The notes under the pieces are model-generated. The model worked only from the letters and a program-made list of their open reading frames with translations. It was not told the DNA's origin and did no database searches. From Bacteroidota bacterium (GTDB lineage: Bacteria; Bacteroidota; Ignavibacteria; UBA10030; UBA6906): 64,000 nt of DNA. Shown one piece after another: positions 12,415 through 51,819 of the stretch. Within the stretch, counting starts at the first letter, position 1. Each line of letters starts with the position of its first letter. The translations under genes and the position numbers were made by a program. The stretch is taken from contig JAUQWO010000022.1 in the NCBI GenBank assembly GCA_030835135.1, forward strand, positions 1 to 64,000. Reading direction: 5' to 3'.

Positions 12415-12695
12415 GGCGTGATCGCTGATAGTGGTGGTGTCTGTCTGCGTTTGCTCTTCGAACCTACCCGATTCCCACCAGAAAATCAAGGCAGTCCGAT
12501 TTTGTAGAAATGTCATGGCCGGGATCGCAGAATGGGTATGATGTTCGCGCGTGACCGCGATTACAGCGCCGCCGGGGCGTATCGTGTATATTGACTCCAC
12601 ACATCGGGTGTCTCCCGACACCACACACAGGTACCAACAGTGGTCATCGTTCCATGCGTCGTCATCGCTCTTTCTTCGTAAAGGAGGGTTCCATC

Positions 12696-16685: not shown

Positions 16686-16725
16686 GAGTTCCTCCTGTGA
16701 AATGGACATAGGGGTTGACCTTTCC

Positions 16726-16753
16726 AAGTTAGCAATCGCTGGAAGAAAGGCAA
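16726..16753 (-). promoter_or_regulatory. Candidate promoter of the 14019-16685 gene
   Basis: On the - strand TTGCCT, 16-bp spacer, TAACTT, about 40 nt upstream of the start codon. The -10 region GCTAACTTG recurs at the 37577-37604 candidate, which raises its credibility slightly. Confidence 0.4.
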
Positions 16754-16795
16754 GGCTTCCGCTTCCATGATGGTTCATCATTGGCACAGGCGTGC

Positions 16796-16824
16796 TTGAC
16801 ATTCCGCGCAGCGAATGGTATCAT
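16796..16824 (+). promoter_or_regulatory. Strong sigma70-type promoter for the FG-GAP protein gene
   Basis: A perfect TTGACA (16796-16801), 17-bp spacer, TATCAT (16819-16824). It lies about 148 nt before the ATG at 16972, implying a leader of roughly 140 nt. Confidence 0.6.
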
Positions 16825-16971: not shown

Positions 16972-18867
16972 ATGAGCAGAGCTACCATCGTGCTGCTTGT
17001 CCTCGCGCTCGTCAGCGGTGCCGCCATGGCACAGCTGTCCAGCGTGGCGACACACAATTCCTACCAGACGAAGTTCCTCTGGACCGGTCCCGACAGCACC
17101 AAGCCGTTCCGCAACGACCAGGGCATCCGCAGCGCCTGGGTCACGAAGGACATGGACAAGGACGGCAAGCCCGAGATCATGTGCACCGACTATGCCAACG
17201 GCGGCCGCGTCCACGTGTTCGAGTTCAAAGCTCCGAACATCCTTGAACTTGTCTGGTCGTCACCGAACATGTATTCCAGCAACGCGAACTCCACCCCCCG
17301 CTGGGTGAAGGACGGCGACCTGGATGGCGACGGGAACCGCGAGATCATCTATCCGGTCGGTCCGCGCTACACGGGCAAGGTTGTGGTGTTCGAGTTTAAC
17401 GGAACGGACAACTCGTATGGTGCAGCCCCGGGCCTCGCTGACCTCGAACTTCCCGCGACGCAATTTGCGGGCGTTCTGGGCGCCACGTCGGCACTGCGCA
17501 TGGATCGTGAGACAGGTACGGTGGAAGATATTGATGGTGATGGCCGTGATGAACTGATCATGGCGAACCAGGACAATAAGGTGTACGTCCTCGGCGTCAT
17601 CGGCGATATCGGCGGGTTCGGGTCGTGGGACATCGAAGGCGGGAACCCCGCGGTGCAAGCGGAGAACAGGTTCTCCGCCGGTTCGTGGTGGCAGTCTGTG
17701 CCGGCCGACATCGACGGCGACGGCGGCAAAGAGATCGTCAACCACTACTGGAACTTCTACGGGTTCTGGTCGATCGATCCGAAGGGAACGGATACCTATC
17801 GCTATCCGACCCCGGGTGTCGACACATTGACGAATCCGATGGCAAAGAAGTATTACTTCGAATACATGAAGTCGCGTGGTGATGATGCCGTTGCGTACAT
17901 GGGCGTGCAGCCCGTCGATGTGAACGGTGACGGCGCCAAAGAGATCGCCGGCATCCTCTACATCGGTGGCTCCACGAACGATTATCAGGTCAGCCTGACT
18001 GCGGTCGCCAAGGGCGATACGGGCGTGTATGTGTGGAAGGATTCGAGCCAGTTCGGGATCATCGGAACGGACCTCTGGAAGACCGCCGGCAAGAACACGG
18101 GTGCCTTCTGGGGTATCGGTGCCTATGATTTCAACGGCAACGGGCGGGAGGAGATCCTTGCGGGTGGCGGGGCCGACTACAATGTGGTCGCTCTGGAATA
18201 CAAGGGCACGGGAAGCCTGACGGACCCGGCGAACTACACGAGCACCGTGTATTATCCTGGCGAGCCGGCCTTCTTCCATAACATCGATTACTATGATTCG
18301 CTCGGCATGGGCGTTGATACGGTGTTCGCCGAGAGTCCGTTCGTTTCCAAGATGTTCGCAGGATCCGATGTGAACGGCAACGGAAAGAAGGAACTGATGC
18401 TCTCGTACCAGAGCGTCGCAGATTCCGTGACCTACCGCCGGTATTCCTGGGATACGTCGGCGACACCTGATTCCTGGAAACTGGACAGCACCTGGAAGCA
18501 GGTCAACGTCGTCGCGACCAACCTTCGCATGCTCGAATGGACCGGCTCCACGTTCGTACCGATCGACGTGACCACCGTCACCCCGGACCAGTACGTGCTC
18601 GAAGCCAACTATCCAAATCCCTTCAACCCGTCCACGATGATCCGCTTCGCGCTCCCGGCGGAGAACAAGATCTCTCTCGTGGTCTATGACATGCTCGGCC
18701 GCGAAGTGAAGACCCTGATCGGCAGCCAGGAGATGGCGAAGGGTGCCTATCAGCAGGAATGGGACGGCACGAACAATGCCGGACAGAGCGTTGCCAGCGG
18801 CAGCTACGTGTACACGCTCAAGTTCGGGAACTTCAGCAAATCCCAGAAGATGATGCTCGTCCGTTAG
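16972..18867 (+). CDS. Secreted FG-GAP/VCBS-repeat protein with T9SS sorting domain
   Basis: 631 residues. The signal peptide MSRATIVLLVLALVSGAAMAQ follows an AGAGGAG ribosome site. The body is a seven-bladed-propeller-like series of FG-GAP/VCBS repeats with calcium-binding DxDGDG loops: KDMDKDGKPEIMC, DGDLDGDGNREIIY, EDIDGDGRDELIM, ADIDGDGGKEIV, VDVNGDGAKEIAG, YDFNGNGREEILAG and SDVNGNGKKELML. The last 80 residues are a type-A sorting domain (LEANYPNPFNPSTMI, then VYDMLGREVKTLIG, ending KMMLVR). Integrin-like propellers of this kind usually bind ligands or other surface proteins; no enzyme motif seen. A clear terminator follows. Confidence 0.88.
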   Translation: MSRATIVLLVLALVSGAAMAQLSSVATHNSYQTKFLWTGPDSTKPFRNDQGIRSAWVTKDMDKDGKPEIMCTDYANGGRVHVFEFKAPNILELVWSSPNMYSSNANSTPRWVKDGDLDGDGNREIIYPVGPRYTGKVVVFEFNGTDNSYGAAPGLADLELPATQFAGVLGATSALRMDRETGTVEDIDGDGRDELIMANQDNKVYVLGVIGDIGGFGSWDIEGGNPAVQAENRFSAGSWWQSVPADIDGDGGKEIVNHYWNFYGFWSIDPKGTDTYRYPTPGVDTLTNPMAKKYYFEYMKSRGDDAVAYMGVQPVDVNGDGAKEIAGILYIGGSTNDYQVSLTAVAKGDTGVYVWKDSSQFGIIGTDLWKTAGKNTGAFWGIGAYDFNGNGREEILAGGGADYNVVALEYKGTGSLTDPANYTSTVYYPGEPAFFHNIDYYDSLGMGVDTVFAESPFVSKMFAGSDVNGNGKKELMLSYQSVADSVTYRRYSWDTSATPDSWKLDSTWKQVNVVATNLRMLEWTGSTFVPIDVTTVTPDQYVLEANYPNPFNPSTMIRFALPAENKISLVVYDMLGREVKTLIGSQEMAKGAYQQEWDGTNNAGQSVASGSYVYTLKFGNFSKSQKMMLVR

Positions 18868-18989: not shown

Positions 18990-19048
18990 GCGGGATCGAT
19001 CCCGCTGATCGGGGAAATTGCATGATCGCGGCGGGCGTGAGCCCGCCG
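18990..19048 (+). promoter_or_regulatory. Palindrome and GNRA hairpin in the leader of receptor cassette 1
   Basis: A perfect 16-bp palindrome GCGGGATCGATCCCGC (18990-19005) is followed by a hairpin with an 8-bp stem CGGCGGGC / GCCCGCCG closed by a GTGA (GNRA) tetraloop (19029-19048), ending 4 nt before the AGGAGG ribosome site of the TonB receptor. It could be an operator plus a translation-controlling hairpin; no TTGACA-type promoter was found in this gap. Confidence 0.45.
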
Positions 19049-19063
19049 GCACAGGAGGCGTGT

Positions 19064-21826
19064 ATGTCAGTTCGCAGTATGATCGCAGTACTGGTGGGAT
19101 GCCTGATCACCGGTGCCGCCTTTGGGGGAACCACGGGGAAGATCGCCGGACGCATTCAGAGCGCGGAGAACGGCGAGGCCCTGGTCGGGGTCAGCGTGCT
19201 CATCGAAGGCACGACCATCGGCGCCAGCACGAACGTGGATGGTGACTACACCATCATCAATATCCCGCCCGGCACGTACAACCTTGTCGCCTCCGGGGTC
19301 GGCTTCCAGAAGAAGCGTATCACGAACGTCAAGGTCTCGGTGGACTTCACCACGCGCGTGGACATCAAGCTGGGAACCGACGTGATCGCCCTCGAAACGG
19401 TGGAAGTGCAGGCCGAGGCTCCGATGATCCGCCGCGACCTGACCTCCTCGCATACGAACATCGACGCGGCGGCCATCCAGGCTTTGCCCGTGGAAAGCGT
19501 AGCGCAGATCCTCTCCCTGCAGGCCGGCATCACGCAGGGTGCCGGTGGCGAGCTGCATATCCGCGGCGGCCGCTCCAACGAGATCGCCTATACGGTCAAT
19601 GGCGTGTCGATCTCCAATCCGTTCGACAACACCCGCACCGTCCAGATCGCCACGAATGCCATCCAGGAGCTGTCGGTGGTGAGCGGCACGTTCAATGCCG
19701 AATACGGCAATGCGCTGAGCGGTGTCGTCAATACGGTGACCAGGGAGGGTGGTACCAGGTTCGGTGGCAGCCTGTCGTTCTATACGGGCGACTACGTGAG
19801 CGGTCACGATGAGATCTTCACGAACATCGACAATCTCAAACCCTTCAGCCACACGGTGACGGAACTGACGCTCAATGGACCGATCCTGAGCGATGATGTG
19901 AGCTTCTTCCTGTCCGGACGGTTCGATGATGAGAAGGGATGGCTCTATGGTGTACGCCAGCATGTGCCCTCGGACTACGCCAGCGTCAACCCGATGAATC
20001 CCAATGACATCACGCTGTTTCGGTCCGGCGACAGCGCCCTCGTCCCGATGAATCCGAGCCGGGAGGTGAGCGGGACCGCCAAGCTGACCTTCACGCCGTT
20101 CTCCACGGCGAAGATCCGGTACGATGTCCTGTACTCGAACTCCTCCTGGAAGGGGTATTCGCACAGCTACAAATACAACCCGGATGCGAACTACAATAAT
20201 AATGAGTGGGGCCTGCTGAACTCCCTGGAACTCCGGCATTCGGTGAACGCCTCAACGTACTATACGCTCCGCGGGTCGTACAATCTCAACGATTACAAGC
20301 AGTATCTCTATCCGCTCCTCGACGCCTCCGGCAGTCCTGTTGTGTACTCCGCCGGCGGCGGGCTGGCCATCAGCACACTCCACGCGGATCCGCGGTACCA
20401 GCCGGATTACAAGAGCGTCGCCGTGGCCCCGTACACGTTCCTCTCCGGCGGCACGCGCAACGGGCACTACTACCAGCGGTCCGCCACGACAAGCGTGAAG
20501 TTCGATGTGACCAGCCAGGTGACGCAGAATCATGAAGTGAAATTCGGCGCGGAGTACAAGACCCATACGCTGACGTACGAGAGCTTCAGTGTCCTCCGGG
20601 ATACGGTGCGCTATTTCACGCCGACCATCCCGTCGATCGCCACGTCGTATCATGACGCCTATTCCCGAAAGCCGAAGGAGATCTCGGCATACCTCCAGGA
20701 TAAGATGGAATTCGACAACCTCATCCTGAATGTCGGTCTCCGGTACGATTTCTTCAGTGCGGATGCGGACTATTCCACGGACATGTTCCATCCGAGTCCG
20801 AACAGCCCGACGTTGCCGACATCGATCGACCGTTCGACCCTGCTGGCCCGGTCGAAGGGCAAGCACCAGTGGAGCCCCCGCGTTGGCGTCTCGTTCCCGA
20901 TCACGGACAAAGGGATCATCCATTTCTCGTACGGGCACTTCTTCCAGATGCCGCCGTTCTCGTACCTGTATGCGAATCCGGATTTCAAGTACAGTTTTTC
21001 GACCGGCACGCCCAGCTTCGGGAATGCCGATCTGAACCCGCAGCGGACCGTCACCTACGAACTCGGCCTCCAGCAGCAGCTCATGCCGAACCTCTCGTTC
21101 AACGTGACGGGATTCTACAAGGACGTGCGCGACCTGCTGGCCCAGCAGCAGATACGCATCAGCGGGGACGAGACCTACTACAAGTATGTGAACAAGGACT
21201 ACAGCAACGTGAAGGGGCTCACGTTCTCGCTCACCAAGCGGCGCGGACCGGGCGACCTGATCGGGGCGACGCTGGACTACACCTTCCAGGTCTCCGAAGG
21301 GAACGAGACGGATGCCAACGCATTCTTCGTCGATCTCTCCTCGGGGCGGCAGAGCGAGAAGGTACCCGTGTACCTCGATTGGGACCAGAGCCATACGCTG
21401 AATGCGACCGTCTCCATCGGTGAACCGAAGGACTGGAATGTCACGCTCGTTGGCCGTCTCGGCACGGGACTGCCATACACACCGCAGATCCTGACGCAGA
21501 CCGTGTACCTGGTGACCAACAGCGCCCGGAAGCCCTCCCAGGTCCGCGTGGATCTGCTCGCCGACAAGACCTTCACGGTGGCGGGGATCCAGCTGACGGG
21601 GTTCCTGAAAGTGTACAATCTCTTCGACAATCTGATCGAGCGGTATGTGTACGACGACACGGGACGGGCAACGTACACGCTCGTGGCGGGGCAGGGGACG
21701 GCCGAAGCAACGAATGCGATCGCCGCGCGCGTGCCGGGCGTTCATCCGGCATCCGAATGGTTCGTGCGGCCGGACTACTATGCCCCCCCGCGAGAAGTGC
21801 GTGTCGGCTTCGACGTAGAATTCTAG
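19064..21826 (+). CDS. TonB-dependent receptor with carboxypeptidase-regulatory N-domain (cassette 1)
   Basis: 920 residues. The start is the ATG after AGGAGG (19053-19058). The signal peptide MSVRSMIAVLVGCLITGAAFG leads into a CarboxypepD_reg-like beta-sandwich (TTGKIAGRIQSAENGEAL ... NIPPGTYNLVASGVGF), then a plug domain (LHIRGGRSNEIAYTVNGVSI, FNAEYGNALSGVVNTVTREGG) and a long beta-barrel region ending REVRVGFDVEF. This is the SusC-like class of outer-membrane active transporters, energised by TonB. No SusD is nearby; instead the next two genes encode a huge secreted protein and a PorV-like barrel, the same order as at 29881-37412 (reverse strand) and 42585-48905. The ligand is unknown. Confidence 0.9.
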   Translation: MSVRSMIAVLVGCLITGAAFGGTTGKIAGRIQSAENGEALVGVSVLIEGTTIGASTNVDGDYTIINIPPGTYNLVASGVGFQKKRITNVKVSVDFTTRVDIKLGTDVIALETVEVQAEAPMIRRDLTSSHTNIDAAAIQALPVESVAQILSLQAGITQGAGGELHIRGGRSNEIAYTVNGVSISNPFDNTRTVQIATNAIQELSVVSGTFNAEYGNALSGVVNTVTREGGTRFGGSLSFYTGDYVSGHDEIFTNIDNLKPFSHTVTELTLNGPILSDDVSFFLSGRFDDEKGWLYGVRQHVPSDYASVNPMNPNDITLFRSGDSALVPMNPSREVSGTAKLTFTPFSTAKIRYDVLYSNSSWKGYSHSYKYNPDANYNNNEWGLLNSLELRHSVNASTYYTLRGSYNLNDYKQYLYPLLDASGSPVVYSAGGGLAISTLHADPRYQPDYKSVAVAPYTFLSGGTRNGHYYQRSATTSVKFDVTSQVTQNHEVKFGAEYKTHTLTYESFSVLRDTVRYFTPTIPSIATSYHDAYSRKPKEISAYLQDKMEFDNLILNVGLRYDFFSADADYSTDMFHPSPNSPTLPTSIDRSTLLARSKGKHQWSPRVGVSFPITDKGIIHFSYGHFFQMPPFSYLYANPDFKYSFSTGTPSFGNADLNPQRTVTYELGLQQQLMPNLSFNVTGFYKDVRDLLAQQQIRISGDETYYKYVNKDYSNVKGLTFSLTKRRGPGDLIGATLDYTFQVSEGNETDANAFFVDLSSGRQSEKVPVYLDWDQSHTLNATVSIGEPKDWNVTLVGRLGTGLPYTPQILTQTVYLVTNSARKPSQVRVDLLADKTFTVAGIQLTGFLKVYNLFDNLIERYVYDDTGRATYTLVAGQGTAEATNAIAARVPGVHPASEWFVRPDYYAPPREVRVGFDVEF

Positions 21827-21929
21827 GACAACGGGACCACGGCAACGGGCACAAGGCAGGACGTGGCGAGGTGAAGAGCATCGGACGTTGTCCGTGCGCG
21901 AACTGGATGTTGAAAAAGGAATCGTGTGC

Positions 21930-24900
21930 ATGAAGAACATGAGAATCACCCGGTGGATGGTGTGGATGCTCGCGGTCGCGGTGAGTGCGGGCTCGACGGC
22001 GGCGCGTGCGGACGACGACGGGCTGGAAAAGGCACGCCGTGCCGTGAAGGAGTACATGCAGGCCAATCCGTACCCGACGGTGGCGAGCGGCACCGCGCCC
22101 GCCCCGATGAAGCCGGCGGCACCGCCCGTCGCCAAGGTGACGGCGACAATGGCACAGAAGGACCGGAAGTCCTTCTTCATGAACGGCAACCGGGTCGCCG
22201 TGGAGCTGTACAACTACGGCGGCATCGCGCCGGGCTATGACGCCCTGCGTGCGGTGAACAACCTCGTCTGGCGGAACCTGGATTACGCGTTCCAATTCTG
22301 CCCCATCGTCGGCGCGTCCGTACCCGATGCGTGGATGCCCGGCAGGCGTCTCCATATCGTCTCCGATGCCCTGTGGGACTATCCGAACCTGCGCGAAGTG
22401 AATCCGACCGGCGATACGCTCTGGCAATGGCAGCCGCTCCCAGGGTTTGCGGATCCCGGACAGAAGTATATGGCGTCGAATCCGGCAGATGACCTGAACG
22501 GCGATGGTAAACCCGACAGCTGGCCGCACACGTGGTACAACCCCTCCACCGGGAAGTATGTCTGGCCCGGGTACCTGTCGCAGGATGTGATGAGCTCGGA
22601 CCTCGAAGTGTTCTGGGCGATGGATGACCGGTTCAATACCGAGTTCCAGTACTTCCCGTTCACGTCGGACTCGTCGCGGAAGGGGATCGGGGTGCAGGTG
22701 GATGGGCGCGCGTTCCAGTGGAGCAATGCGCTGGCCGAGAACACGATCTTCTTCGTGTACACCGTCACCAATACCAGCGACAAGCATCTGGACAGCGTGT
22801 ACTTCGGCATCTACGGCGATCCGGACCTGGGCGGAGGTGCGCCCGAGAACACGGATGACAACGGGTATTTCGTTCCCCCGTACGATACCACCGGGCGTCT
22901 GGACGGGGTGCCGATCTACTCGCGCAGCATGGTGTACTTCTGGGATCCGGACATGAAGGGTGCCCGCGGACTCCCGCTGGGGTTCGTCGGGTGCAAGTAC
23001 CTCGAGAGTCCGGGCAACCCGGTGAACGGCATCGATGATGACGGTGACGGCGTCATCGATGAACGGCAGGACGACGGGATCGATAACGATCACGACTGGA
23101 GCATCCTCGAAGACGACATCGGGATCGACGGCGTACCGAACACCCAGGACCAGGGCGAGGGCAACGGCGTGCCCGATGCCGGCCGGCGCCTCGGGGACGG
23201 GACACAGGACCCGCTCTATCCGGGCGAGCCGAATTTCGAACTCACCGATCTCGACGAGTCGGACCAGATCGGTCTCACCAGCTTCAACAGCTGGTCGTGG
23301 AATACGGACCGCATCTCCAACGACGAATCGATGTGGAACCGCTCCATCCCCCGGAACTTCGGCGCCATCCAGCAGAACTCCGATATCGTGTACATCTTTG
23401 CCTCCGGCTACATCACGCTGGCCCGCGCGGAGACGAAGCGGATCTCGATGGCCCTGCTCCTTGCGGAGAACCTGGACGGCCTGTTGACCACGGCGAAGAC
23501 CGTGCAGACCATCTATAACAAAAACTATCAGTTCTTCCGCCCGCCCGTCACGCCGCACATGACGGCCGTGCCGGATGACAAGAAGGTGACGTTGTACTGG
23601 GATACGGCCGCGGAAGCAAGTGTCGATCCGATCACCGGCAAGGATTTCGAGGGGTACGTGATCTACCGGAGCACCGACCCCGCGTTCGGCGATATCCAGA
23701 CCGTCACCGACGGGAAGGGTGCGAAGTTCCTCTCGACACCGCTCACCGATGTGACCGGGGCCGAAGCGAAGTGGGACATTGCCCTGCGATCGGAGCCGTA
23801 TACCGATGCGAATTTCAACGGGAAGTATGACGCCGGCGAGTCGTATGTGGATTGGAACCACGATGGCCGGTATACCGAGAACGGCGAGGACCTCTGGAGG
23901 GGATACCATCCCGTTGCCTATCAGGACCGCGGTCTGCAATACTTCCTCGGGAACAACCGCGGGCTCGTGCACTCGTTCGTGGATTCGAACAACGTGATCA
24001 ACGGTCAGACCTACTACTACGCGGTGGTGGCGTTTGACCATGGCGATTCGGTCGGCATTCCGCCCACGGAGACCACGAAGAAGATCACCGTGGACCCGAT
24101 CACATCCACGTACAAGTACGATGTGAACACGGCGCAGGTGGTCCCGGGCCCGCGGACCAGCGGGTACATTCCGCCGGCGCTCGCCTCCCGGAATCTCAGC
24201 CATACGAGTGGGATCGGCACCGGTCCCGTAACACTCCGGATGATGAACGACCTTGTGATCCGGAACGCCGGCGAGTACACGGTGACCTTCGCCGATTCCT
24301 TCTTCAATGGCCAGCGGAACATCCCCGGCAAGAACTACTCCGTGCTGGATGCGAAGCCGGTCACGGAGACATTCGCTCCCTTCGACACGAACTTCTCGAC
24401 CCTGAGTCACAACGCGCTCGCGGATGACGGATCGTTGCGTGTGACCGGGGCGAACGGCACCGTGTACACGCGTGGAGCGGATTATATCGTGAATTTTCAG
24501 CGTGGGTCCATCCGCCGGACGGCGGCAAGCACGATGCCCGCGAATGGCACCTACACCATCACCTACCGCTACTATCCGGTGTACCAGAGCCGCGCCATCA
24601 AGGCGGAGGATTCGAATCCGGTGTTCGATGGGGTGTCGTTGAAGATCGAGGACCATCCCGAGCTGCGGTACGACTCCATCCGGTCGCGGTGGGTGGAGGG
24701 AAGCAGCAACTTCACCTTCCTGGCGAAGATCACATCGATCGGCACCCGGAAACGGCTCTGGCCGGCGGACTATGAGATCCGCTTCTCGAACACCGACATC
24801 GATACGGCGCTGGTGCAGAGTGGAGGGCTGGTCCGGGTGCCCGTGCGGTATGCCGTGTACGATGTGACCACGGGGACCCCGCAGCGTATCCAGACGTTCC

Positions 24901-25484
24901 TCGCGGAGAACAGCGCGACTCGCGACCGCCAGTGGAGTCCCGGCGAAGAGATCGTCCTCTTCAAGCCCGGTGCGACGGGTGCTTCCACGGACACCACCAC
25001 ATGGGGGATCGTCGTCTCCGCTCCGGCTGACAGCTCGGTGACCCCGCGCTCGCCGGGCAATGGGGATGTCCTGCTGATCGCGACCCGCCGGCCGTTCTCC
25101 AACGACGACCGGTTCACGATCGCCACCGAAGGGTCGACCGTGAGCACGGAACGGGCATCGTCGCTCATGGACCAGATCTACGTCGTCCCCAATCCGTATG
25201 TGGGCCTCAGCGACATCGAGCCGACCAACCGTCTGCCCGGCGCCACGCGCGGCGAGCGGCGGATCTATTTCGAACATCTCCCGTCGCTCTGCACCATCCG
25301 CATCTTCACGATCAATGGGGATCTGGTGCAGACGCTGAACCATGATACCGGCGTACAGAACGGACGCGAGTACTGGAACCTGCTCAACCGGGATGGCTTC
25401 AGTGTGGCCTATGGTGTGTATATCGCGCACATCGATGCCCCCGGGGTGGGGGAGAAGATCCTGAAGTTTGCCCTCATCAAATGA
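21930..25484 (+). CDS. Large secreted protein with FnIII and variant VPNPY C-terminal domain (cassette 1)
   Basis: 1184 residues. Signal peptide at MKNMRITRWMVWMLAVAV, with the AAAAAGGA ribosome site correctly spaced for ATG 21930. The N-terminal third is specific to these cassettes (VAVELYNYGGIAPGYDAL, then SWPHTWYNPSTGKYVWPGYL, then NTIFFVYTVTNTSDKHLDSV). A calcium-binding-like acidic stretch follows (GIDDDGDGVIDERQDDGIDND), then FnIII-like domains (KVTLYWDTAAEASVDP, GQTYYYAVVAFDHGDSVG). The C-terminus does not carry YPNPFNP but a related variant: VVPNPYVGLSD, LCTIRIFTINGDLVQTL, ending HIDAPGVGEKILKFALIK. It is clearly homologous in all these parts to the 31013-34516 product. Probably exposed at the cell surface and working with the adjacent receptor; function unknown. 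Confidence 0.82.
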   Translation: MKNMRITRWMVWMLAVAVSAGSTAARADDDGLEKARRAVKEYMQANPYPTVASGTAPAPMKPAAPPVAKVTATMAQKDRKSFFMNGNRVAVELYNYGGIAPGYDALRAVNNLVWRNLDYAFQFCPIVGASVPDAWMPGRRLHIVSDALWDYPNLREVNPTGDTLWQWQPLPGFADPGQKYMASNPADDLNGDGKPDSWPHTWYNPSTGKYVWPGYLSQDVMSSDLEVFWAMDDRFNTEFQYFPFTSDSSRKGIGVQVDGRAFQWSNALAENTIFFVYTVTNTSDKHLDSVYFGIYGDPDLGGGAPENTDDNGYFVPPYDTTGRLDGVPIYSRSMVYFWDPDMKGARGLPLGFVGCKYLESPGNPVNGIDDDGDGVIDERQDDGIDNDHDWSILEDDIGIDGVPNTQDQGEGNGVPDAGRRLGDGTQDPLYPGEPNFELTDLDESDQIGLTSFNSWSWNTDRISNDESMWNRSIPRNFGAIQQNSDIVYIFASGYITLARAETKRISMALLLAENLDGLLTTAKTVQTIYNKNYQFFRPPVTPHMTAVPDDKKVTLYWDTAAEASVDPITGKDFEGYVIYRSTDPAFGDIQTVTDGKGAKFLSTPLTDVTGAEAKWDIALRSEPYTDANFNGKYDAGESYVDWNHDGRYTENGEDLWRGYHPVAYQDRGLQYFLGNNRGLVHSFVDSNNVINGQTYYYAVVAFDHGDSVGIPPTETTKKITVDPITSTYKYDVNTAQVVPGPRTSGYIPPALASRNLSHTSGIGTGPVTLRMMNDLVIRNAGEYTVTFADSFFNGQRNIPGKNYSVLDAKPVTETFAPFDTNFSTLSHNALADDGSLRVTGANGTVYTRGADYIVNFQRGSIRRTAASTMPANGTYTITYRYYPVYQSRAIKAEDSNPVFDGVSLKIEDHPELRYDSIRSRWVEGSSNFTFLAKITSIGTRKRLWPADYEIRFSNTDIDTALVQSGGLVRVPVRYAVYDVTTGTPQRIQTFLAENSATRDRQWSPGEEIVLFKPGATGASTDTTTWGIVVSAPADSSVTPRSPGNGDVLLIATRRPFSNDDRFTIATEGSTVSTERASSLMDQIYVVPNPYVGLSDIEPTNRLPGATRGERRIYFEHLPSLCTIRIFTINGDLVQTLNHDTGVQNGREYWNLLNRDGFSVAYGVYIAHIDAPGVGEKILKFALIK

Positions 25485-25595
25485 TGCGCTGACGACGATG
25501 GGACGCAGAAGAACGGAATACCCGATGATGAGCATCGGGGCGGGCGCACCTGAGAAGTGCATGACATGCATTCCCCTGAAAGTGGAGATCCAACA

Positions 25596-26621
25596 ATGAG
25601 ACGTTCACCAATCATCCTGCTGACGGTGCTCGGGGCGATGGTCGTTGCCGGGCTGGCAACGGCGTCGGCGCAGAACCTGACCAAGACGGGCACCACCGCA
25701 GCGCCGTTCCTCAAGATCGGCGTCGGCTCGCGCGCCATCGGCATGGGTGGCGCGTTCACCGCGACGGCCGACGATATCACGGCGATCTACTGGAACCCGG
25801 GCGGTCTCGCGAAGCTGTACTCCAGCGAGGCCACGTTCAATCACGTCCGCTGGCTTGCGGATGTGAACCTCGACTTCGCTGCGTTCGCGACCCACATCCC
25901 CGAGTTCGGTACGCTCGGTGCGTTCGTGAGCGTGGAATCGATGGATGAGATGGAGGTGCGGACCACCGCGCAACCGGAAGGGACCGGCGAACGGTTCACC
26001 GCCGGCGCGATGGCCATCGGCATTTCCTATGCGCGCGACCTGACGGACCAGTTCTCGATCGGGTTCAACGCGAAGTACCTCAACGAACACCTCTGGAACA
26101 TGTCGGCAAGCGGGGTCGCCATCGACATCGGGACCATCTACCGGATCCCGATCCTGAACGAATTCCGGCTGGCCGCCAGCATCTCGAATTTCGGCACGAA
26201 GATGAAGCTGGAAGGGCGCGACAATCTGAAGATCGCCCAGGTCGGCGGCGGCGAGGGGAACCTGATCAATACCGACATTCAGCTCGATGCGTTCGAACTG
26301 CCCCTGCTCTTTCGCGTGGGTGTGGCCGCGGACGTGGTGAAGGATGGCGAGCACCGGGTGACCGCCGCCGTGGATGCTGTCCATCCCAACGACAACACCG
26401 AATACCTGAACACCGGCATGGAGTACGCCTGGAACGAGATCGTGTTCGTCCGGGGCGGGTGGAAGTCCCTCTTCGAGCGCGAGACCGAACAACACTTCAC
26501 CGCGGGTGTCGGCCTGCACTACCGCATCGTTGGTGATTTCAAGTTCATGGTGGATTATGCCTACCAGGACTGGGGACGACTGAAGAATGTCCACTACCTG
26601 ACGTTCGGCATGCGGTTCTGA
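25596..26621 (+). CDS. PorV/PorQ family (UPF0164) outer-membrane protein (cassette 1)
   Basis: 341 residues. Signal peptide MRRSPIILLTVLGAMVVAGLATASAQ, then the family hallmark FLKIGVGSRAIGMGGAFTA and ITAIYWNPGGLAKL. The remainder alternates short beta strands, as expected for a FadL-like 14-strand barrel, ending HYLTFGMRF. PorV carries T9SS cargo from the translocon to the surface attachment complex; PorQ and other paralogues are less defined. It is 111 nt after the large secreted protein, suggesting a dedicated partner. The paralogue at 29881-30936 shares the motifs HPNDNTEYLNTG / HPNDNTEYVNAG and NFGTKMKLEGRD. Confidence 0.88.
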   Translation: MRRSPIILLTVLGAMVVAGLATASAQNLTKTGTTAAPFLKIGVGSRAIGMGGAFTATADDITAIYWNPGGLAKLYSSEATFNHVRWLADVNLDFAAFATHIPEFGTLGAFVSVESMDEMEVRTTAQPEGTGERFTAGAMAIGISYARDLTDQFSIGFNAKYLNEHLWNMSASGVAIDIGTIYRIPILNEFRLAASISNFGTKMKLEGRDNLKIAQVGGGEGNLINTDIQLDAFELPLLFRVGVAADVVKDGEHRVTAAVDAVHPNDNTEYLNTGMEYAWNEIVFVRGGWKSLFERETEQHFTAGVGLHYRIVGDFKFMVDYAYQDWGRLKNVHYLTFGMRF

Positions 26622-27334: not shown

Positions 27335-29665
27335 ATGAGAACACTGCTTGCTCTTCTGGTATGCGCGGCCCCGGCGCTCGCCGATCAGGGGGTCGAGTTC
27401 ACCGTGAACACCAGGCATCCGGGTACGCAGCGGGATGTGCAGGTGGACCGCGATCTGCTCTCCTCCGCGCTCATCGTGTGGACGAGCGGGAATCATGCCG
27501 GGTCCGGCACACGCGGGGATATCGTCCTCCGGCGGTTGACCCTGGAGATGTGGAACGGCGGCGCTGCACGGTCCGGGAGCAGCGTGCCCGGCCCCGGCGT
27601 CACGAGCATGAGCGCCCTTGCGGACACGGAGATGATCATACACGACCCTGCCGGGATCGGGGATCAGGAGAAGCCAGCCCTCGCGGCCAACCTCCGGGGA
27701 TCTGCCGTCGTCGCCTGGGCGTCGATGACCAACCGCGATTCCGCGTACGACATCAAGGCGCGCCGGTTCCATCTCGGCGTTCCTGCGGGACCGGAATTCT
27801 TCGTGAACACCACGATGCCGCGGACCCAGACCGAGCCGGATGTGGCGATCGACAGCGCGGGACGTTTCGTGGTGGCGTGGGATGGCTGGACCGCGGGCGA
27901 CGACCGCGATGTCTATCTGCGGGTCTACGGTGCCGACGGCGCACCGCGTACCGGAGAGATCCGGGTCAACACCACCACGGCGTACAGTCAGGCGAGACCC
28001 GCCGTGCGGTACCGGCCCGACGGGTCGTTCGTCGTGGTGTGGGAATCGTGGCAACAGGATGACGGGCTGGCTGCAGGGTATGGTGTGTATGCGCGGCTCT
28101 TCGACAGTCTCGGCGTCCCGCTCTCCGGCGAGATCGCGGTCAACGTGTGGACTCCCGACTTTCAGTGGTATGCCGATGTCGAAACGTTCAGTGACAATGG
28201 CTTCGTGGTGGTCTGGTGCAGCTGGGAGCAGGACGGTGCCGATGGCGGGATCTATCTCCAGCGGTTCGCTGTGAACGGCGCGCGGCGCGGCGTGGAAGAG
28301 CGGGTGAACACCACCACCGCGCAGTATCAGTGGCTTCCACGCATCCGGCGGAACGAGGACGACAGCTTCGTCGTCTGCTGGTCCAGCTGGAAGCAGGACG
28401 GCAGCAGAGAGGGTGTGTATCTCCAGATGTACGACACGGAGGCCCGGAAGGTCTCGTTCGAGACGCAGGTCAACAGCCGCACCGAGTCATACCAATGGGA
28501 GCCGGATATCGTGGCCGTCGCTCCGGGCGACGTGTTCGCGGTGTGGTCCGATTGGTTCAGCCCCCAGCTCGATCATGAAGTGACCGCCCGCCGCATCTTG
28601 CCCGTGCGTTCCCAGGGTGCGCTTGCCCCGTCCGCGCTGATGCATACCGCCGGCCGCACAACCTCGCGCCTGACGGTTCATGTGATCGATTCTCTCGCGT
28701 TGACGGGGCACACGTATGAGGCGATCTTCGACTCGCTCCCGAACAGGACGGCAGCGTTGAGCGTCCGCGACCTCGTGTCCGGCGATACCCTCGTGCATCG
28801 GTTCCCGATCGGCCTGGGTGAGAACATCTTCTATTTGACCCCCGCCTTTCATGGCGTCACGGTGGAGGTCGTGCCGGAATTCGATCTCGATCTGGATCTG
28901 AGCTCTTCCACCACGATCAACCGGAGCGGGAACACCTTCATGTTCTCAATCAACCCTCCGTCTGCCGGCACCAGGAGGGTTGCTCCCATCGAGGTCGCGC
29001 TCATCTGGGGGAATACCGATACGCTGGCGGATGGCAGCTACGTCACGGCACTTGACACCGCGCTGTCGCTGAGCGGGAAACGAGAAGTGCTGGTGCCCTT
29101 CCGCGGCTGGAATATCACGGACGGACAGAAGATGGACCTGCTGGTGGTCGACAGTCCGTCCAACAAGCGCTGGGATAAAGGCGAGCGGATCGTGTTCCTG
29201 ACACCACCGGCCTACCGCTCGATCGCCACCAACACGCACGCCGAGGTCCGTCCGGATGCCTTCGGGACTCCGGTGATCTACCCGGGGCCGGGCGACACGA
29301 CGATCATCCGGACGTTCAGGCCGATCACGAACGCTGACCGTTTCACCTTCTCGGCTGTGCGGGCTGCGGTCCTGGATGTGTCTGAGCCGCAGGGGCGGCC
29401 GGGGCTCTTCGCACTTGCGCAGAACTATCCGAATCCCTTCAACCCGTCCACCACGATCCGATACACCGTTCCCGTCGCGGGCGATGTCACGCTCACGGTG
29501 TATTCGATGCTTGGGCAACGGATCGGTGTGCTCGCGTCAGGGTTCCATCAGCCCGGCACGTACCGTGTACGGTTCGATGCGCGGACGCTCGCCAGCGGGG
29601 TCTACTTCTACGCGCTGGATGGGGGAGGGAAGAGGTTGGTGCAGAAAATGATGGTGATGAAGTAG
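27335..29665 (+). CDS. Secreted repeat protein with T9SS sorting domain
   Basis: 776 residues beginning with the signal peptide MRTLLALLVCAAPALA after a GAGGA ribosome site. Residues about 20-430 consist of five or six repeats of roughly 60 residues with the pattern VNT..x(10-15)..P.V....G.FVV.W.SW..D....VY.R.Y (for example EIRVNTTTAYSQARPAV, FVVVWESWQQDD, FVVCWSSWKQDGS), which reads like a beta-propeller. A Big/Ig-like middle region follows, then the sorting domain (LAQNYPNPFNPSTTI, VYSMLGQRIGVLAS, ending KMMVMK). No enzyme motif recognised. Last gene of the cassette 1 transcript, converging on cassette 2. Confidence 0.85.
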   Translation: MRTLLALLVCAAPALADQGVEFTVNTRHPGTQRDVQVDRDLLSSALIVWTSGNHAGSGTRGDIVLRRLTLEMWNGGAARSGSSVPGPGVTSMSALADTEMIIHDPAGIGDQEKPALAANLRGSAVVAWASMTNRDSAYDIKARRFHLGVPAGPEFFVNTTMPRTQTEPDVAIDSAGRFVVAWDGWTAGDDRDVYLRVYGADGAPRTGEIRVNTTTAYSQARPAVRYRPDGSFVVVWESWQQDDGLAAGYGVYARLFDSLGVPLSGEIAVNVWTPDFQWYADVETFSDNGFVVVWCSWEQDGADGGIYLQRFAVNGARRGVEERVNTTTAQYQWLPRIRRNEDDSFVVCWSSWKQDGSREGVYLQMYDTEARKVSFETQVNSRTESYQWEPDIVAVAPGDVFAVWSDWFSPQLDHEVTARRILPVRSQGALAPSALMHTAGRTTSRLTVHVIDSLALTGHTYEAIFDSLPNRTAALSVRDLVSGDTLVHRFPIGLGENIFYLTPAFHGVTVEVVPEFDLDLDLSSSTTINRSGNTFMFSINPPSAGTRRVAPIEVALIWGNTDTLADGSYVTALDTALSLSGKREVLVPFRGWNITDGQKMDLLVVDSPSNKRWDKGERIVFLTPPAYRSIATNTHAEVRPDAFGTPVIYPGPGDTTIIRTFRPITNADRFTFSAVRAAVLDVSEPQGRPGLFALAQNYPNPFNPSTTIRYTVPVAGDVTLTVYSMLGQRIGVLASGFHQPGTYRVRFDARTLASGVYFYALDGGGKRLVQKMMVMK

Positions 29666-29880: not shown

Positions 29881-30936
29881 TTACAGTCGAACTCCCAGCG
29901 AGAAGTACTGCACGTTCTTCAACCGCCCGTAATCTGCGAAGCCATAGTCCAGCTTGATCGTGGCGACGTTCGGGATGCCGTAGTGCACGCCCACGCCCCA
30001 CGTGAGGCCCTGTTCGGAATCGCGCAGGAACAGCGATTTGTACCCCACGCGTCCGAAGATGATCTCTTTCCAGGTCGCTTCCAGCCCGGCATTCACATAC
30101 TCGGTGTTGTCATTCGGATGTGTCGCATCCACCGCGAACGTCGTCCGGATATCCTCGACCGGAGTGATCTCGTACGCGACGCCGATCCGGAACGTCAACG
30201 GGAGGTCGAAGGTCTCCGTCCTGAGATCCGAGGGGATGTTGCTCGGTCCGCTGCCGATGTCGCCATCCGGGTCGTAGTTGAACTGCAGATCGCGCCCTTC
30301 CAGCTTCATCTTTGTGCCGAAGTTCGAGATCGATGCGCCGAGGGTCAGGCCGGGGATCTCGGACATGTACAGGGTACCGATATCGACTGCGAACCCGTTG
30401 GCGGCCTCGCTCCAGACCGCATCGCGGATGTACTTCGCCGTGAACCCGATCGAGAAGCGGTCCGTCAGGTTGCGCGCGTAGCTCAACCCGAAGGCGATGG
30501 AACTCGCGTCCCACTTCCGGCCATCGCCGTTCGGGAAATCCACCGTCCGGACGATGTCCTCGGGCACGCGCATCGAGATCACCGACAGGCCGAAGGTGCC
30601 GAGCTCGCCGATGGGCATCGCGCCTGCGGCGAAATCGTAATTGATGTCGGCCAGCCAGTTGGCGTGGTTGAACGTGAGTTCGCTGTTGATCTGCATACGG
30701 GACAGCGCGGCCGGGTTCCAGTAGATGGAGCTGATGTCGCCGGTCACCGCCGCCTGCGCGCCGCCCATGCCGAGGGCCCGGGCGCCGACGCCGATCTTGA
30801 GGAACTGTGCCGCCGTGGTGCCGACCTTGGCGGTACTGCGGAACAGCTGGGCACGGGCGGGTGTGGCATTCACGATAAGGAATGCCAGCAGAAGGGCTCC
30901 CGCGAGCGTGGCCCGTGTGCTGCGCATGATCTTCAT
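29881..30936 (-). CDS. PorV/PorQ family (UPF0164) outer-membrane protein (cassette 2)
   Basis: 351 residues. The signal peptide MKIMRSTRATLAGALLLAFL is preceded by GGAGG. It has the family signature FLKIGVGARALGMGGAQAA followed by ISSIYWNPAALSRM and ends QYFSLGVRL. It is very close to the cassette 1 paralogue (shared NFGTKMKLEGRD and HPNDNTEY) and lies 76 nt after the large secreted protein on the same strand. Predicted beta-barrel that could deliver or hold the neighbouring secreted protein at the outer membrane; by family knowledge only PorV itself has a demonstrated cargo-shuttle role. Confidence 0.88.
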   Translation of the reverse strand: MKIMRSTRATLAGALLLAFLIVNATPARAQLFRSTAKVGTTAAQFLKIGVGARALGMGGAQAAVTGDISSIYWNPAALSRMQINSELTFNHANWLADINYDFAAGAMPIGELGTFGLSVISMRVPEDIVRTVDFPNGDGRKWDASSIAFGLSYARNLTDRFSIGFTAKYIRDAVWSEAANGFAVDIGTLYMSEIPGLTLGASISNFGTKMKLEGRDLQFNYDPDGDIGSGPSNIPSDLRTETFDLPLTFRIGVAYEITPVEDIRTTFAVDATHPNDNTEYVNAGLEATWKEIIFGRVGYKSLFLRDSEQGLTWGVGVHYGIPNVATIKLDYGFADYGRLKNVQYFSLGVRL

Positions 30937-31012
30937 ACAACCTCCAGAGCAATTCATGTGTGCGATCCGTACACCGCGGTGCCCGTCACCCGGGCACCGC
31001 GTGACGCGTTGA

Positions 31013-34000
31013 TCACTTGATCAGTGCAAGCCGGCCGATCTTCTCGCCGACACCCGGGACCTCGACGTGATAGATGTACACGCCGTAGGCCAGGCGCTGG
31101 CCTTCATACGAAAGGACCCGCCAGTCGGCATAGCTGTTCCCATCATCCTTCACGATCGTGTCCACCAGCTCACCGAGGAGCGTGTAGATGCGGATCGTGC
31201 ACTTGGGCGGCAGGTTCCGGAACTGCAGCTTGTTCTCCCCGCGCCGGATCGAACTCGGACCCGGCTGCTCCATCGTGCTGTAGGCGACGTACGGGTTCGG
31301 CACCACACAGATCTGGTCGAGCGTGTTCGTCGCCGTGGCAACATCGAACTTCGACGCGGTGCTCGTGAACGTGTACTGATCGCCCGCGGCGAACGGCTTC
31401 GAGGTCTTCACCTCGTAGATGTTCCCCTGGGTCGGATAGACCGGTGTCTGGCCGTTCGGCACGCTGAACGTGACCGACAGCATCACCGGGATCGGGCTCT
31501 GCGGCGCGTACTTGGGCGGCGTCACGAACACGATCTCCCGTCCGGGGCGCCACATGCTGTCGGTGAGCGCCTTGTCCACCAGGATGCGCATCGTGGACGT
31601 GTCGGACATGTTGACGATCCTGAAGGGGCATACGACCACGCGGCGGCCCGAATTGTTCAGCACCGTGTCGCCCGGGAACGCCCACTTGCCGTTCGCGAGC
31701 GTGTCCGTCTTGTTCCACTGGATCTGGAAATCGAGCGGTGCCGGACGGAATGGTGCGGTCGTCAGCGCGATGGTCTTGTGGACCCGGCCGACGAGATTGG
31801 AATTGTTGATGGCGGACCATCCGCTCCGGGCGGAGTCTATCCCCAGCGGCACGTCGGTGGCGTACACCCGCATGCCATCGAACACCGGATTGTCGTCTTC
31901 CGTCGCCAGACGGTTGCTCTCGTACACCGCATAGTACCGGAAGGTGATCGTGTAGGTCGCCCCCGCGGTCAGATTGCCCGTCGCGTTGCCGCGGATGCGG
32001 CCACCGGTGGCATCCAGCCGGTACTGGGAGGGGTTCACGGTCGCGCCCGCCGCATCCTTCACGACCACCGTCGAGGCGACCAGGTTCTTGTGGGACAGCG
32101 GCACATAGATCGTATCACGCGAGGTGAAGCTCTCGCTGTGGTCGGACAGGGACTGGATATCGTACACGACCTTGCCGCCCGCCGTGCGGAAATCGATGTT
32201 GTACCTCGCACCGTCGATCACGGCGACGTCATCCATCACTTTCACGCTGATCGTACCGGTGGAGACACCGGCCACGCGCTGGGCCGTCGCGCCATTGCCG
32301 ACGCTGGCCTTCGTCTGGCCCGCGGGGAGCGGCCCGGGGATCACGGCCAGCGTGTTCTGGTCGAAGCTGAGCACGCCCGTCACCGGATCCTTGGTGATCG
32401 CGATCTGGCACTCCGTGGGCGGCAGCGAGACGCCCAGGGTATCGAATCCATGGTCATACGATGCGACGGCATAGTAATACGTGACGCCGTTGGTGACTGT
32501 GGAATCGACATACTCGTGGACCAGGCCGTTGTTGGTGCCGAGGTTGTACTTCACGCCCCGGCCCTGGTATTCGACCGGATGCAGTCCGGACCAGGTATTG
32601 ACGAGGTCGAACTGGGCTTTGGTCCCGTTCTTGCCCACGAGCGGCGTGGGGAGGAAGGCCGAACCGTTCGCGTCCGTGATCGTGTAGACATCACTGAACG
32701 TGTAGTCCTGGCTCCGGTAGATCTTGTAGCCCTCGAAGTCCTGGGTGTTCGTCAACGGATCGGTGGTCTTCTCCGCCAGATTGTCCCAGTAGAGTGTCAC
32801 GCGGCCTTCGCCGGGGATCGCGGTCACATTCGGTTTGGGCGGCGGCTGCGCGAACAGGTAGTTCGCTTCCAGCACGCGCTGTGCCGTCTCGGAATTGAGC
32901 AGCAGGTCGGCGAGGTTCTCGCCCATCATCAGCGCGATGGAGAACCGCTGCGTCCCTTCCGGCTCGAGCACGAACGGACCGGAACCGTACAGGAACTCGT
33001 TGTCGCCCGGCGTGCGGAAATACGCCTGGTCCACAGCGATCGAGTCGGAGGAGAGCTGCTGGGTGAAGAGCACATCGTTGACCGGGAAGTTCGGCGATGC
33101 TGCCGCCTGCGCGACGAAGCTGGTCAGACCGATCTGATCGGATTCGTTGACGTCGCGGATGCCGAAATTCGGTTCCGAGGTGAAATTGCCGTTGGCGTCG
33201 GTGCCGTTGTCCGGCTTGGCATTCCCTTCGCCGAAGTCACCGGTGCCGGCGATGCCGTCCAGCCCGACGTCGTCCTTATCGACACGCCAGTTGCCGTTCT
33301 CGTCGCCCGACCACCGCGCCTTCGGACGGCCGTACAGTTTGACGTACTTGGCGGTGTCCGCAATGCCGGTCGTGAGCGGGAGCGTGGTACCGTCGATATA
33401 GGTGCCCGCTGCATTGAACGGACTCTCGTCGATCACACCATCATCATCGTCATCCTTGCCGTTCGTCGAATTGCTGGGCGACTCGAGGAACTTGAACCCG
33501 AAGTATCCCGGCGTCAGTCCGCCATCGCCCTTGTTGTCCGCATCCCATGCGTACACCATGCTGCGCGCGCGCTGCGGGAAGGGATCGGCAAGAACGCCCC
33601 TGGGGGGGATGAAATAGGCATAATCGTCGCCGTAGTCGTTCGGACCGCCGACGTGCGGGTCGCCGAACATGCCGAAGTACACTCTGCCGAGCGTCTTGGG
33701 GCTCTTGTTCGTGACACGGTACACGAGGAAGATGATGTCCTCGGCCAGCGGATTGTTGAACTGGAAGAACCGGCACTCGAGGTCGAGTCCGAGGCCGACG
33801 CGGGTCGTGTCGCCGTCCCACGGCAGATACCTCTGCATCCACTTCTTGTTCGTGGCATCGTCGCACACGAAGTAGACTTCCTCATCGGGCGACGTGGCGT
33901 CGTTACCGAGATATGCCGGCCACACATAGCGGCCGAGTGCGCTGTTGTACCACGACTCCGGCCAGCTATGGGGCTTGCGGGTCAGGTCGCCGCCCACGTC

Positions 34001-34516
34001 GGAACGGTGGCTCCATGCAGCGATGTCCGCCTGTCCGGGAGCGGCGTATCCGGGCTTCGGCAGCCATCCCCATTTCAGGGACCCGTCCGGCGCGTACGCA
34101 CCCTGGCTCGGCGTGTACATGCCATCATCCAGGATCCACACGGAATCGCCCTGAATGCTCTTCACCTTTGCGGCAACCAGCGGATCGAATTCGTAGCCAT
34201 ACCCCAGCCGGTTCCAGACCAGGTCCGCAACGTTGCCGAGGGCGTTCGGCCGCGTGATGTTGCCGTAGTTGTAGACGATGGTGGTGATCTTATTCCCGCG
34301 GATGATCAGGCTGCGGATCTCCTTCATGCTGCCCGTGGTCTTGGCCAGTGCCGGGCCCGACTGCTGGTGTTCGAGAAAGTCCACCAGCCGCTGCCATTCC
34401 TGAGGGCTCGCCTTCTTCGGGTCGAGCTTCAGCAGATCGTTCTCCTGCGCACGTGACACGCCCGCCGTCACCATCAGCGCCGCGGCCACCAGGAGAGTGA
34501 GAAATGATGTTTTCAT
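31013..34516 (-). CDS. Large secreted protein with variant VPNPY C-terminal domain (cassette 2)
   Basis: 1167 residues. Signal peptide MKTSFLTLLVAAALMVTAGVSRAQ. It is homologous along its length to the 21930-25484 product: TIVYNYGNITRPNAL, SWPESWYNSALGRYVWPAYL, DIIFLVYRVTNKSPKTLGRV, the acidic loop GKDDDDDGVIDE, FnIII-like RVTLYWDNLAEKTTDP and VTYYYAVASYDHGFDT, and the C-terminus VVPNPYVAYS, KCTIRIYTLLGELVDTI, HVEVPGVGEKIGRLALIK. It lies 28 nt after the receptor gene and 76 nt before the PorV-like gene, a tight operon. No enzymatic site recognised; most likely a surface component that works with the receptor. Confidence 0.83.
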   Translation of the reverse strand: MKTSFLTLLVAAALMVTAGVSRAQENDLLKLDPKKASPQEWQRLVDFLEHQQSGPALAKTTGSMKEIRSLIIRGNKITTIVYNYGNITRPNALGNVADLVWNRLGYGYEFDPLVAAKVKSIQGDSVWILDDGMYTPSQGAYAPDGSLKWGWLPKPGYAAPGQADIAAWSHRSDVGGDLTRKPHSWPESWYNSALGRYVWPAYLGNDATSPDEEVYFVCDDATNKKWMQRYLPWDGDTTRVGLGLDLECRFFQFNNPLAEDIIFLVYRVTNKSPKTLGRVYFGMFGDPHVGGPNDYGDDYAYFIPPRGVLADPFPQRARSMVYAWDADNKGDGGLTPGYFGFKFLESPSNSTNGKDDDDDGVIDESPFNAAGTYIDGTTLPLTTGIADTAKYVKLYGRPKARWSGDENGNWRVDKDDVGLDGIAGTGDFGEGNAKPDNGTDANGNFTSEPNFGIRDVNESDQIGLTSFVAQAAASPNFPVNDVLFTQQLSSDSIAVDQAYFRTPGDNEFLYGSGPFVLEPEGTQRFSIALMMGENLADLLLNSETAQRVLEANYLFAQPPPKPNVTAIPGEGRVTLYWDNLAEKTTDPLTNTQDFEGYKIYRSQDYTFSDVYTITDANGSAFLPTPLVGKNGTKAQFDLVNTWSGLHPVEYQGRGVKYNLGTNNGLVHEYVDSTVTNGVTYYYAVASYDHGFDTLGVSLPPTECQIAITKDPVTGVLSFDQNTLAVIPGPLPAGQTKASVGNGATAQRVAGVSTGTISVKVMDDVAVIDGARYNIDFRTAGGKVVYDIQSLSDHSESFTSRDTIYVPLSHKNLVASTVVVKDAAGATVNPSQYRLDATGGRIRGNATGNLTAGATYTITFRYYAVYESNRLATEDDNPVFDGMRVYATDVPLGIDSARSGWSAINNSNLVGRVHKTIALTTAPFRPAPLDFQIQWNKTDTLANGKWAFPGDTVLNNSGRRVVVCPFRIVNMSDTSTMRILVDKALTDSMWRPGREIVFVTPPKYAPQSPIPVMLSVTFSVPNGQTPVYPTQGNIYEVKTSKPFAAGDQYTFTSTASKFDVATATNTLDQICVVPNPYVAYSTMEQPGPSSIRRGENKLQFRNLPPKCTIRIYTLLGELVDTIVKDDGNSYADWRVLSYEGQRLAYGVYIYHVEVPGVGEKIGRLALIK

Positions 34517-34544
34517 ACAGAGTCCCATCGAATGAATGAGAGTA

Positions 34545-37412: not shown

Positions 37413-37536
37413 GGTGTACCTTTTGGTTGATGAGAGTGCCAATACAACAACGGGGGAACTGAGAAAGGAAAACGGTCGATCTTCCCTACGGCCCGAGGAC
37501 ACGACAGCGAGGATGAAGATCACTATTATAGACAAA

Positions 37537-37565
37537 AATATAGAGAAACCACTTCCCGTAGTCAA
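37537..37565 (-). promoter_or_regulatory. Strong sigma70-type promoter for cassette 2
   Basis: On the - strand TTGACT (37565-37560), 17-bp spacer, TATATT (37542-37537). It gives a leader of about 120 nt before the receptor ATG at 37412. Confidence 0.6.
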
Positions 37566-37576
37566 GCAGCGGGAAC

Positions 37577-37604
37577 TTGATTTTTTGCGTGATTGTGCTA
37601 ACTT
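37577..37604 (+). promoter_or_regulatory. Candidate promoter for the 37743 gene
   Basis: TTGATT (37577-37582), 16-bp spacer, TAACTT (37599-37604), about 140 nt before the ATG. The -10 region GCTAACTTG matches the one at 16726-16753. Weaker than the TTGACA/T promoters. Confidence 0.4.
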
Positions 37605-37742
37605 GACGGGCATATTCCTCTCCAGTCTGTCCTGTCAACTCACAGACCTCATCGTGCCGGGCATCGTGGCAGTGTCGGACGGTCTGGCCGGACGCCACCG
37701 CCACGGCCCGGATGCAGTACCCATTACCAACAGGAGGTATTC

Positions 37743-45752: not shown

Positions 45753-45804
45753 CCGCACCGTGCCTCGGTCGCACGACACACGCGTTTCTCACTGCGAGGA
45801 AGCA

Positions 45805-47871: not shown

Positions 47872-47894
47872 TGAACGAGCATCGGGGCCTTTCC

Positions 47895-50155: not shown

Positions 50156-50193
50156 TACACAGTTCCACACTCAACAACAGAAAGGGGTACGTT

Positions 50194-51734: not shown

Positions 51735-51819
51735 TGTCATATTGGTCCATCCGGGTCCGGCGGACCCGCTGCCACCGGACGGACCACTCCAGGAACCCGT
51801 TTTGCGAAGGGCTGTATCC

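Follow-up and report, generated by a model that had tools for sequence, protein, structure and literature searches.

The secreted proteins described here end in a C-terminal domain (CTD) that opens with VPNPY and, although homologous to the type A CTDs of the T9SS, forms a distinct and divergent branch among them. Their genes almost always lie between a gene for a TonB-dependent receptor (TBDR) and one for a barrel of the PorV family, and this TBDR-cargo-PorV unit recurs in about nine phylum-level lineages. In the open-access literature we found no description of the unit or of PorV paralogues in these phyla, and the recurrence suggests a widespread and apparently undescribed surface machine. 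With a little better than even confidence, we favour the reading that each cargo docks on a private PorV paralogue and is retained beside the TBDR, as a T9SS-built SusCD-like complex.

The genome measures 4.9 Mb; the window, i.e., the whole stretch of 64,000 nucleotides that was analysed, is its contig segment C74:1-64000. It holds three three-gene cassettes, each transcribed in the order TBDR, large secreted protein, PorV/PorQ-family barrel (Table 1). The TBDR is thus a third constant member of the unit, which the sequence-only reading had left out of its finding. Eight other secreted proteins of the window carry YPNPFNP or FPNPFNP tails. The cassette a cargo has a likely ATG start at 21930 and a Sec signal (MKNMRITRW..ARA) without lipobox. 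A long open reading frame with Arg/Lys repeats at 29686-31020 (+), antisense to the cassette b barrel gene, is most likely not a gene.

Table 1. Cassette genes, VPNPY-type domains and contrast cargos in the window.
Feature	Coordinates	Strand	Evidence
Cassette a gene 1: TBDR, N-terminal CarboxypepD_reg and Plug	19022..21826	+	Pfam PF13715, PF07715, PF00593 above cut-off
Cassette a gene 2: secreted cargo	21888..25484	+	Translation, signal check, AlphaFold2 model of body
VPNPY-type CTD, cassette a	25182..25484	+	Alignments; AlphaFold2 beta-sandwich, pLDDT 85; best fold match PorZ CTD
Cassette a gene 3: PorV/PorQ-family barrel paralogue	25557..26621	+	NF033709 228.8 bits; below PorV, PorQ and PorV2 equivalog cut-offs
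Cassette b gene 1: TBDR	34545..37613	-	PF13715, PF07715, PF00593
Cassette b gene 2: secreted cargo	31013..34576	-	Translation; body homologous to cassette a
VPNPY-type CTD, cassette b	31013..31306	-	Alignment
Cassette b gene 3: PorV-family barrel paralogue	29881..30957	-	NF033709 218.7 bits
Cassette c gene 1: TBDR	42585..45752	+	PF13715, PF07715
Cassette c gene 2: secreted cargo, shorter and different body	45724..47871	+	Translation; no match to body HMM
VPNPY-type CTD, cassette c	47584..47871	+	Alignment
Cassette c gene 3: PorV-family barrel paralogue	47871..48905	+	NF033709 202.3 bits
YPNPFNP-type cargo	12591..13916	+	
YPNPFNP-type cargo	14019..16802	-	
YPNPFNP-type cargo	16972..18867	+	
YPNPFNP-type cargo	27335..29665	+	TIGR04183 38.7 bits
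YPNPFNP-type cargo	37743..39197	+	TIGR04183 47.2 bits
FPNPFNP-type cargo	39599..42112	+	
YPNPFNP-type cargo	50152..51645	+	TIGR04183 43.0 bits
YPNPFNP-type cargo	51742..54201	+	

The sequence-only reading had ascribed a common set of motifs to the three cassette proteins, and most of it holds. The tails open with VVPNPY (from 25182 on the plus and 31306 on the minus strand) or IVPNPY (from 47584, plus strand), continue with C-(T/R)-IRI-(F/Y)-T..G.L in all three, and finish on a hydrophobic-Ile-Lys/Arg end (ALIK, ALIK and SVIR). The proposed G-x-G-E ending is found in two of them, while the third has Q-T-G-E-R-I. Similarly, the eight stand-alone tails had all been described as YPNPFNP with LGREV; seven have YPNPFNP and one FPNPFNP, and LGREV is present in six, the other two having LGQRI and LGQEV. 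The neighbouring barrels, previously called UPF0164, belong to the PorV family by model NF033709 (202-229 bits, cut-off 90), whereas PF03687 exceeds its cut-off in only one of them.

Across the whole genome, a PorV-family gene follows on the same strand within at most 500 nt in 11 of the 13 clear VPNPY tails, against 0 of the 150 scored TIGR04183 tails, of which the genome has at least 150 (Fisher p = 2e-15). These 11 are the best VPNPY tails, and all 11 barrel-linked cargos have a TBDR directly 5'. One of the two exceptions is an orphan paralogue, C49:37886, with no barrel next door; the cassette cargo C46:174033 shares 63% identity with it in the tail and 59% in the body. The other is a cassette on contig C12, in which an inserted YPNPFNP gene separates the receptor-barrel pair from the VPNPY gene. 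The genome has 16 PorV-family genes above cut-off, which also include the true PorV adjoining PorU (C69), PorQ (C45) and a PorV2-like gene (C72). On contig C36, a protein with a YPNPFAP tail is followed by a pair of neighbouring PorV-family genes, scoring 145.7 and 68 bits (L020, 9056-12706), possibly a further cargo-barrel arrangement outside the VPNPY class. In the PorU-PorV locus, a CTD protein with the tail YNWPNPAYGG directly follows the canonical PorV (L009, C69, 6195-9461) and matches the VPNPY profile weakly.

The unit is not peculiar to this genome. A profile scan of genome contigs with a five-row tail alignment as query returned 80 close relatives, which by record title belong to Ignavibacteria, Kryptonia, Calditrichota, KSB1, Neomarinimicrobiota, Stahlbacteria, Delongbacteria, Zixibacteria and Rhodothermales; a 12-row tail alignment used as query for related loci had no stretch conserved enough. 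A PorV-family gene lies directly 3' in 80/80 of these relatives, and a TBDR directly 5' in 64 of the 65 loci with enough DNA. In 30 further loci from a sample of 148 genomes, PorV is directly 3' in 28 and the other two are permuted to TBDR-PorV-cargo; the 18 lower-ranked loci have it directly 3' throughout (18/18), one with a tandem-duplicated cargo-barrel pair. Receptor-barrel-cargo order is seen in the rearranged loci L137 (G016:C21:60000-75000) and L138 (G001:C1:512000-527000), and the tandem duplication of cargo and barrel at L140 (G112:C1:3249000-3266500).

Because best hits favour complete orthologues, we also sampled 40 stretches round weaker hits, down to about 60 bits, in genomes of other lineages. 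In this distant sample the barrel is directly 3' in 32 of 43 tails and nearby in four more. Four of the seven tails without a barrel belong to one tandem array in a KSB1 genome (L170, G150:C20:1-16000), where four VPNPY-type cargos follow each other with no PorV or receptor nearby. Among the YPNPFNP-type reading frames on the same DNA, a PorV-family gene directly 3' was found in none (0/77 in the close-relative set and 0/21 in the distant set, 0/98 in total). A YPNPFNP-type cargo gene does occur directly after the barrel in 22 of the 80 units, hence both tail types can occur within a single gene row, and which of them a cargo carries goes with where its gene lies relative to the barrel. The split into two CTD classes according to PorV adjacency, as suggested from the window, is thus strongly supported in the genome itself and across phyla.

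The tail also travels with the T9SS. In the 148-genome phylum sample it occurs in 83 genomes, all of which have SprA (83/83), and in 0/31 of the genomes that lack SprA; SprA is likewise present in 12/12 tail-bearing genomes reached via loci of other lineages. Some sample genomes have single low-scoring tail matches (E 1e-9 to 1e-10), which may be PorZ itself. Up to 19 tails occur per genome, and the tail count per genome follows the PorV-family count with a Spearman coefficient of 0.94, with the highest PorV-family counts entered as at least 13. SprA-positive genomes free of the tail have one to four PorV-family genes. The genome of the window has the sorting components SprA, PorU, PorV, PorZ and PorQ.

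The type A model TIGR04183 gives no match for two of the window tails and 12.2 bits for the third (cut-off 23), and touches its cut-off in some paralogues on C46 (27.7 bits in L016, 20.9 in L017). A type B identity was considered and dropped, since the family models stay below cut-off and the neighbours have no PorP/SprF match: TIGR04131 does not match, and PF13585 is absent in the window cargos and reaches 17.6 bits in L016 (cut-off 27). AlphaFold2, run on 38 aligned tails, predicts a beta-sandwich (pLDDT 85), all-beta except for one short helix. With this model Foldseek places PorZ first (5m11, E 2e-6), with PorU and, from translocon structures, the CTDs of NucA and RemZ lower in the ranking. 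VIA-align gives Z 12.8 for PorZ, 10.1 for PorU, 8.6 for the mirolase CTD and 8.1 for the NucA CTD, and only PorZ and PorU rise above a crowd of common sandwiches. Sequence profiles agree. Searched against the PDB, the tail profile finds PorZ (E 8.6e-5), then PorU (0.012), and ordinary cargo CTDs are not among its matches. The ranking is unchanged with a smaller profile of 12 rows (PorZ E 1.2e-5). In contrast, the YPNPFNP profile finds the cargo CTDs 8glj, RgpB and NucA, but neither PorZ nor PorU. The tail hence belongs to the type A fold family, on the PorZ/PorU side. The cargos are not PorZ themselves: only their C-terminal part matches the full-length PorZ model, with 18-38 bits (cut-off 260), and the genome has its own PorZ at C60:22825 (328 bits). 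The tyrosine of PNPY is present in 38/38 tails and a Lys/Arg at position -6 in 35/38, aligned with the type A KMxLxK ending by eye rather than by structure. The motif E lysine of RemZ, Lys1110, contacts PorV (PMC10994853). The sequence-only reading would have been given up had the VPNPY type proved to be the mere edge of TIGR04183 with no link to PorV; homology to type A CTDs is indeed there, but the link to PorV is very strong.

While the window barrels clearly fall into the PorV family, none reaches the PorV, PorQ or PorV2 equivalog models (38-110 bits; cut-offs 250, 220 and 325). Elsewhere in the genome these models give 258.5 bits for PorV on C69, 234.5 for PorQ on C45 and 225 for the PorV2-like gene on C72, which is below its cut-off. 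PorP/SprF models were not among the matches of the neighbouring barrels. The receptors score 53-75 bits with the SusC/RagA model TIGR04056 and do not reach its cut-off of 368, and Pfam SusD does not match the cargos. We also considered the cargo as a lipoprotein analogue of SusD, and dropped this because a rough scan finds a lipobox in only 4/68 cargos; 64/68 have a non-lipoprotein Sec signal. As the cargos are mostly not lipoproteins, another anchor is needed.

We propose that the cargo would be exported by Sec and then translocated by SprA, guided by its VPNPY tail. The tail would be captured by the PorV-family barrel from the adjoining gene, and not, or not only, by the housekeeping PorV. 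Most likely it would be left on the protein as a non-covalent anchor on this barrel, as for the PorZ CTD on PorQ and the PorU CTD on PorV. The PorZ CTD escapes cleavage by PorU (PMC8545088), and a review describes the CTDs of PorU and PorZ as staying bound to PorV and PorQ, respectively, and suggests that cognate PorV-like barrels shield CTDs from cleavage (PMC10202324). Barrel, surface cargo and the TBDR encoded upstream might then form an uptake complex in the outer membrane, analogous to SusCD in function, where a surface protein anchored on the PorV-family barrel takes the part of the lipoprotein SusD. The orphan cargo C49:37886 and the KSB1 array L170, both without a neighbouring PorV, count against such private pairing, and the resemblance to PorZ and PorU could reflect shared ancestry without shared fate. 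Moreover, mirror-tree analysis shows that all members of the unit correlate, the tail-PorV pair no more than others (partial correlation given TBDR 0.12-0.24), and hence lends no support to co-evolution of tail and PorV beyond joint inheritance. The earlier suggestion that the variant domain routes cargo to its own PorV or to another attachment route fits the PorZ/PorU resemblance, but the mirror-tree does not single out the tail-PorV pair. In the PorV tree, branches are long, the backbone is unresolved and the cassette barrels are not recovered as one clade.

The same gene linkage would be expected if the paralogue were a dedicated but transient shuttle that takes the cargo from SprA and hands it on, after which PorU cleaves the tail and no lasting complex of barrel and cargo exists. 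Type B CTDs and SprF-like proteins are cognate shuttle pairs of this kind, needed for secretion (PMC12618676). However, the nearest known CTDs, those of PorZ and PorU, are described as retained (PMC8545088, PMC10202324), and a recycled shuttle needs no private copy per cargo; we consider this explanation unlikely. We regard it as rather unlikely, too, that the tail is simply a type A CTD that has diverged and is served by the housekeeping PorV, with the barrel as a FadL-like channel or part of the TBDR complex that has no role in sorting, and adjacency reflecting co-function in an operon. The type A fold is kept and a Lys/Arg probably equivalent to that of motif E is present, so that the housekeeping PorV may still bind the tail; some members come near the TIGR04183 cut-off, and in the mirror-tree the TBDR-PorV distances correlate best. 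Against this, YPNPFNP cargos are never directly 5' of a PorV-family gene in any of the three sets counted above, although 22 of 80 units have one just 3' of the barrel, thus tail type follows position relative to the barrel and not operon membership. Finally, weak profile similarity to the FlgD Ig-like domain could mean that the tail is a docking domain of Ig type with no relation to T9SS export, and that the cargo takes another route to the surface. Since PorZ and PorU are best by both sequence and fold, and the tail keeps strictly to genomes with SprA among those tested, this is very improbable.

The VPNPY tails share with type A CTDs (TIGR04183/PF18962, shuttled by PorV) the beta-sandwich, the PNP motif A, the GxY motif D, a probable counterpart of the terminal Lys/Arg of motif E, and T9SS hosts, but have VPNPY for YPNPFNP, window tails below the model cut-offs and a private PorV paralogue. 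The CTDs of the attachment complex, PorZ with PorQ and PorU with PorV, are closest in sequence and fold and have barrel partners of the PorV/PorQ family, the PorZ CTD being non-cleaved. In contrast to them, the bodies of VPNPY cargos show no match to propeller or sortase families, their barrels are neither PorQ nor PorV equivalogs, and a genome carries many such units, in operons that include a TBDR. Type B CTDs (TIGR04131) with PorP/SprF-like shuttles show the same arrangement, with a dedicated barrel gene directly behind the cargo gene and numerous pairs in a genome; orphan cargos occur as well and in F. johnsoniae share a shuttle (PMC12618676), a situation to be compared with the orphan C49:37886. 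CTD and barrel families differ, however, and five type B operons of F. johnsoniae contain a PorE homologue where a TBDR is found here. Like SusC/SusD loci, the units pair a CarboxypepD_reg TBDR with an adjoining gene for a large surface protein and have many paralogues per genome, yet the receptors score below the SusC cut-off, and the cargo is not SusD, mostly no lipoprotein and bears a T9SS-type tail. In the BamG-BamH pair of the Bacteroidota BAM complex, a FadL/PorV-like barrel also is the platform for a surface protein (PMC12578637), but that protein, BamH, is a lipoprotein; the complex serves to fold outer-membrane proteins and involves no CTD.

In the literature, one PorV is taken to serve every type A substrate, and cognate pairing of CTD and barrel is reserved for type B and SprF (PMC12618676). 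A type A-related tail with a nearly one-to-one tie to PorV paralogues departs from this view. We may tentatively speculate, at somewhat less than even confidence, that the units represent a third T9SS sorting class, with a type A-derived CTD and its own PorV-family anchor for each cargo. Throughout the FCB superphylum, this class would build TonB-driven uptake complexes that offer an alternative to SusCD with its lipoprotein. If true, this would account for the dozen PorV-family genes in many of these genomes. Anchoring as in PorZ-PorQ would then apply to ordinary surface proteins as well, and a T9SS-built uptake machine would be indicated. Genome annotation could also recover many surface proteins now missed by the TIGR04183 and PF18962 models.

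For cargo a, AlphaFold2 predicts (pLDDT 77) an N-terminal half that resembles the beta-supersandwich found in enzymes of the GH15/GH65/GH94/GH116 type (best Z 20.3 over 257 residues, rmsd 3.1), and no helical catalytic barrel. This predicted fold is compatible with a sugar-binding surface protein, although the beta-supersandwich is also found in the periplasmic domain of YidC and hence is no proof of a ligand. In cargo b, residues 801-884 (window 31925-32176, minus strand) match a phage tail tube model weakly (NF052337, 30.8 bits, cut-off 60), which probably reflects a shared beta-sandwich.
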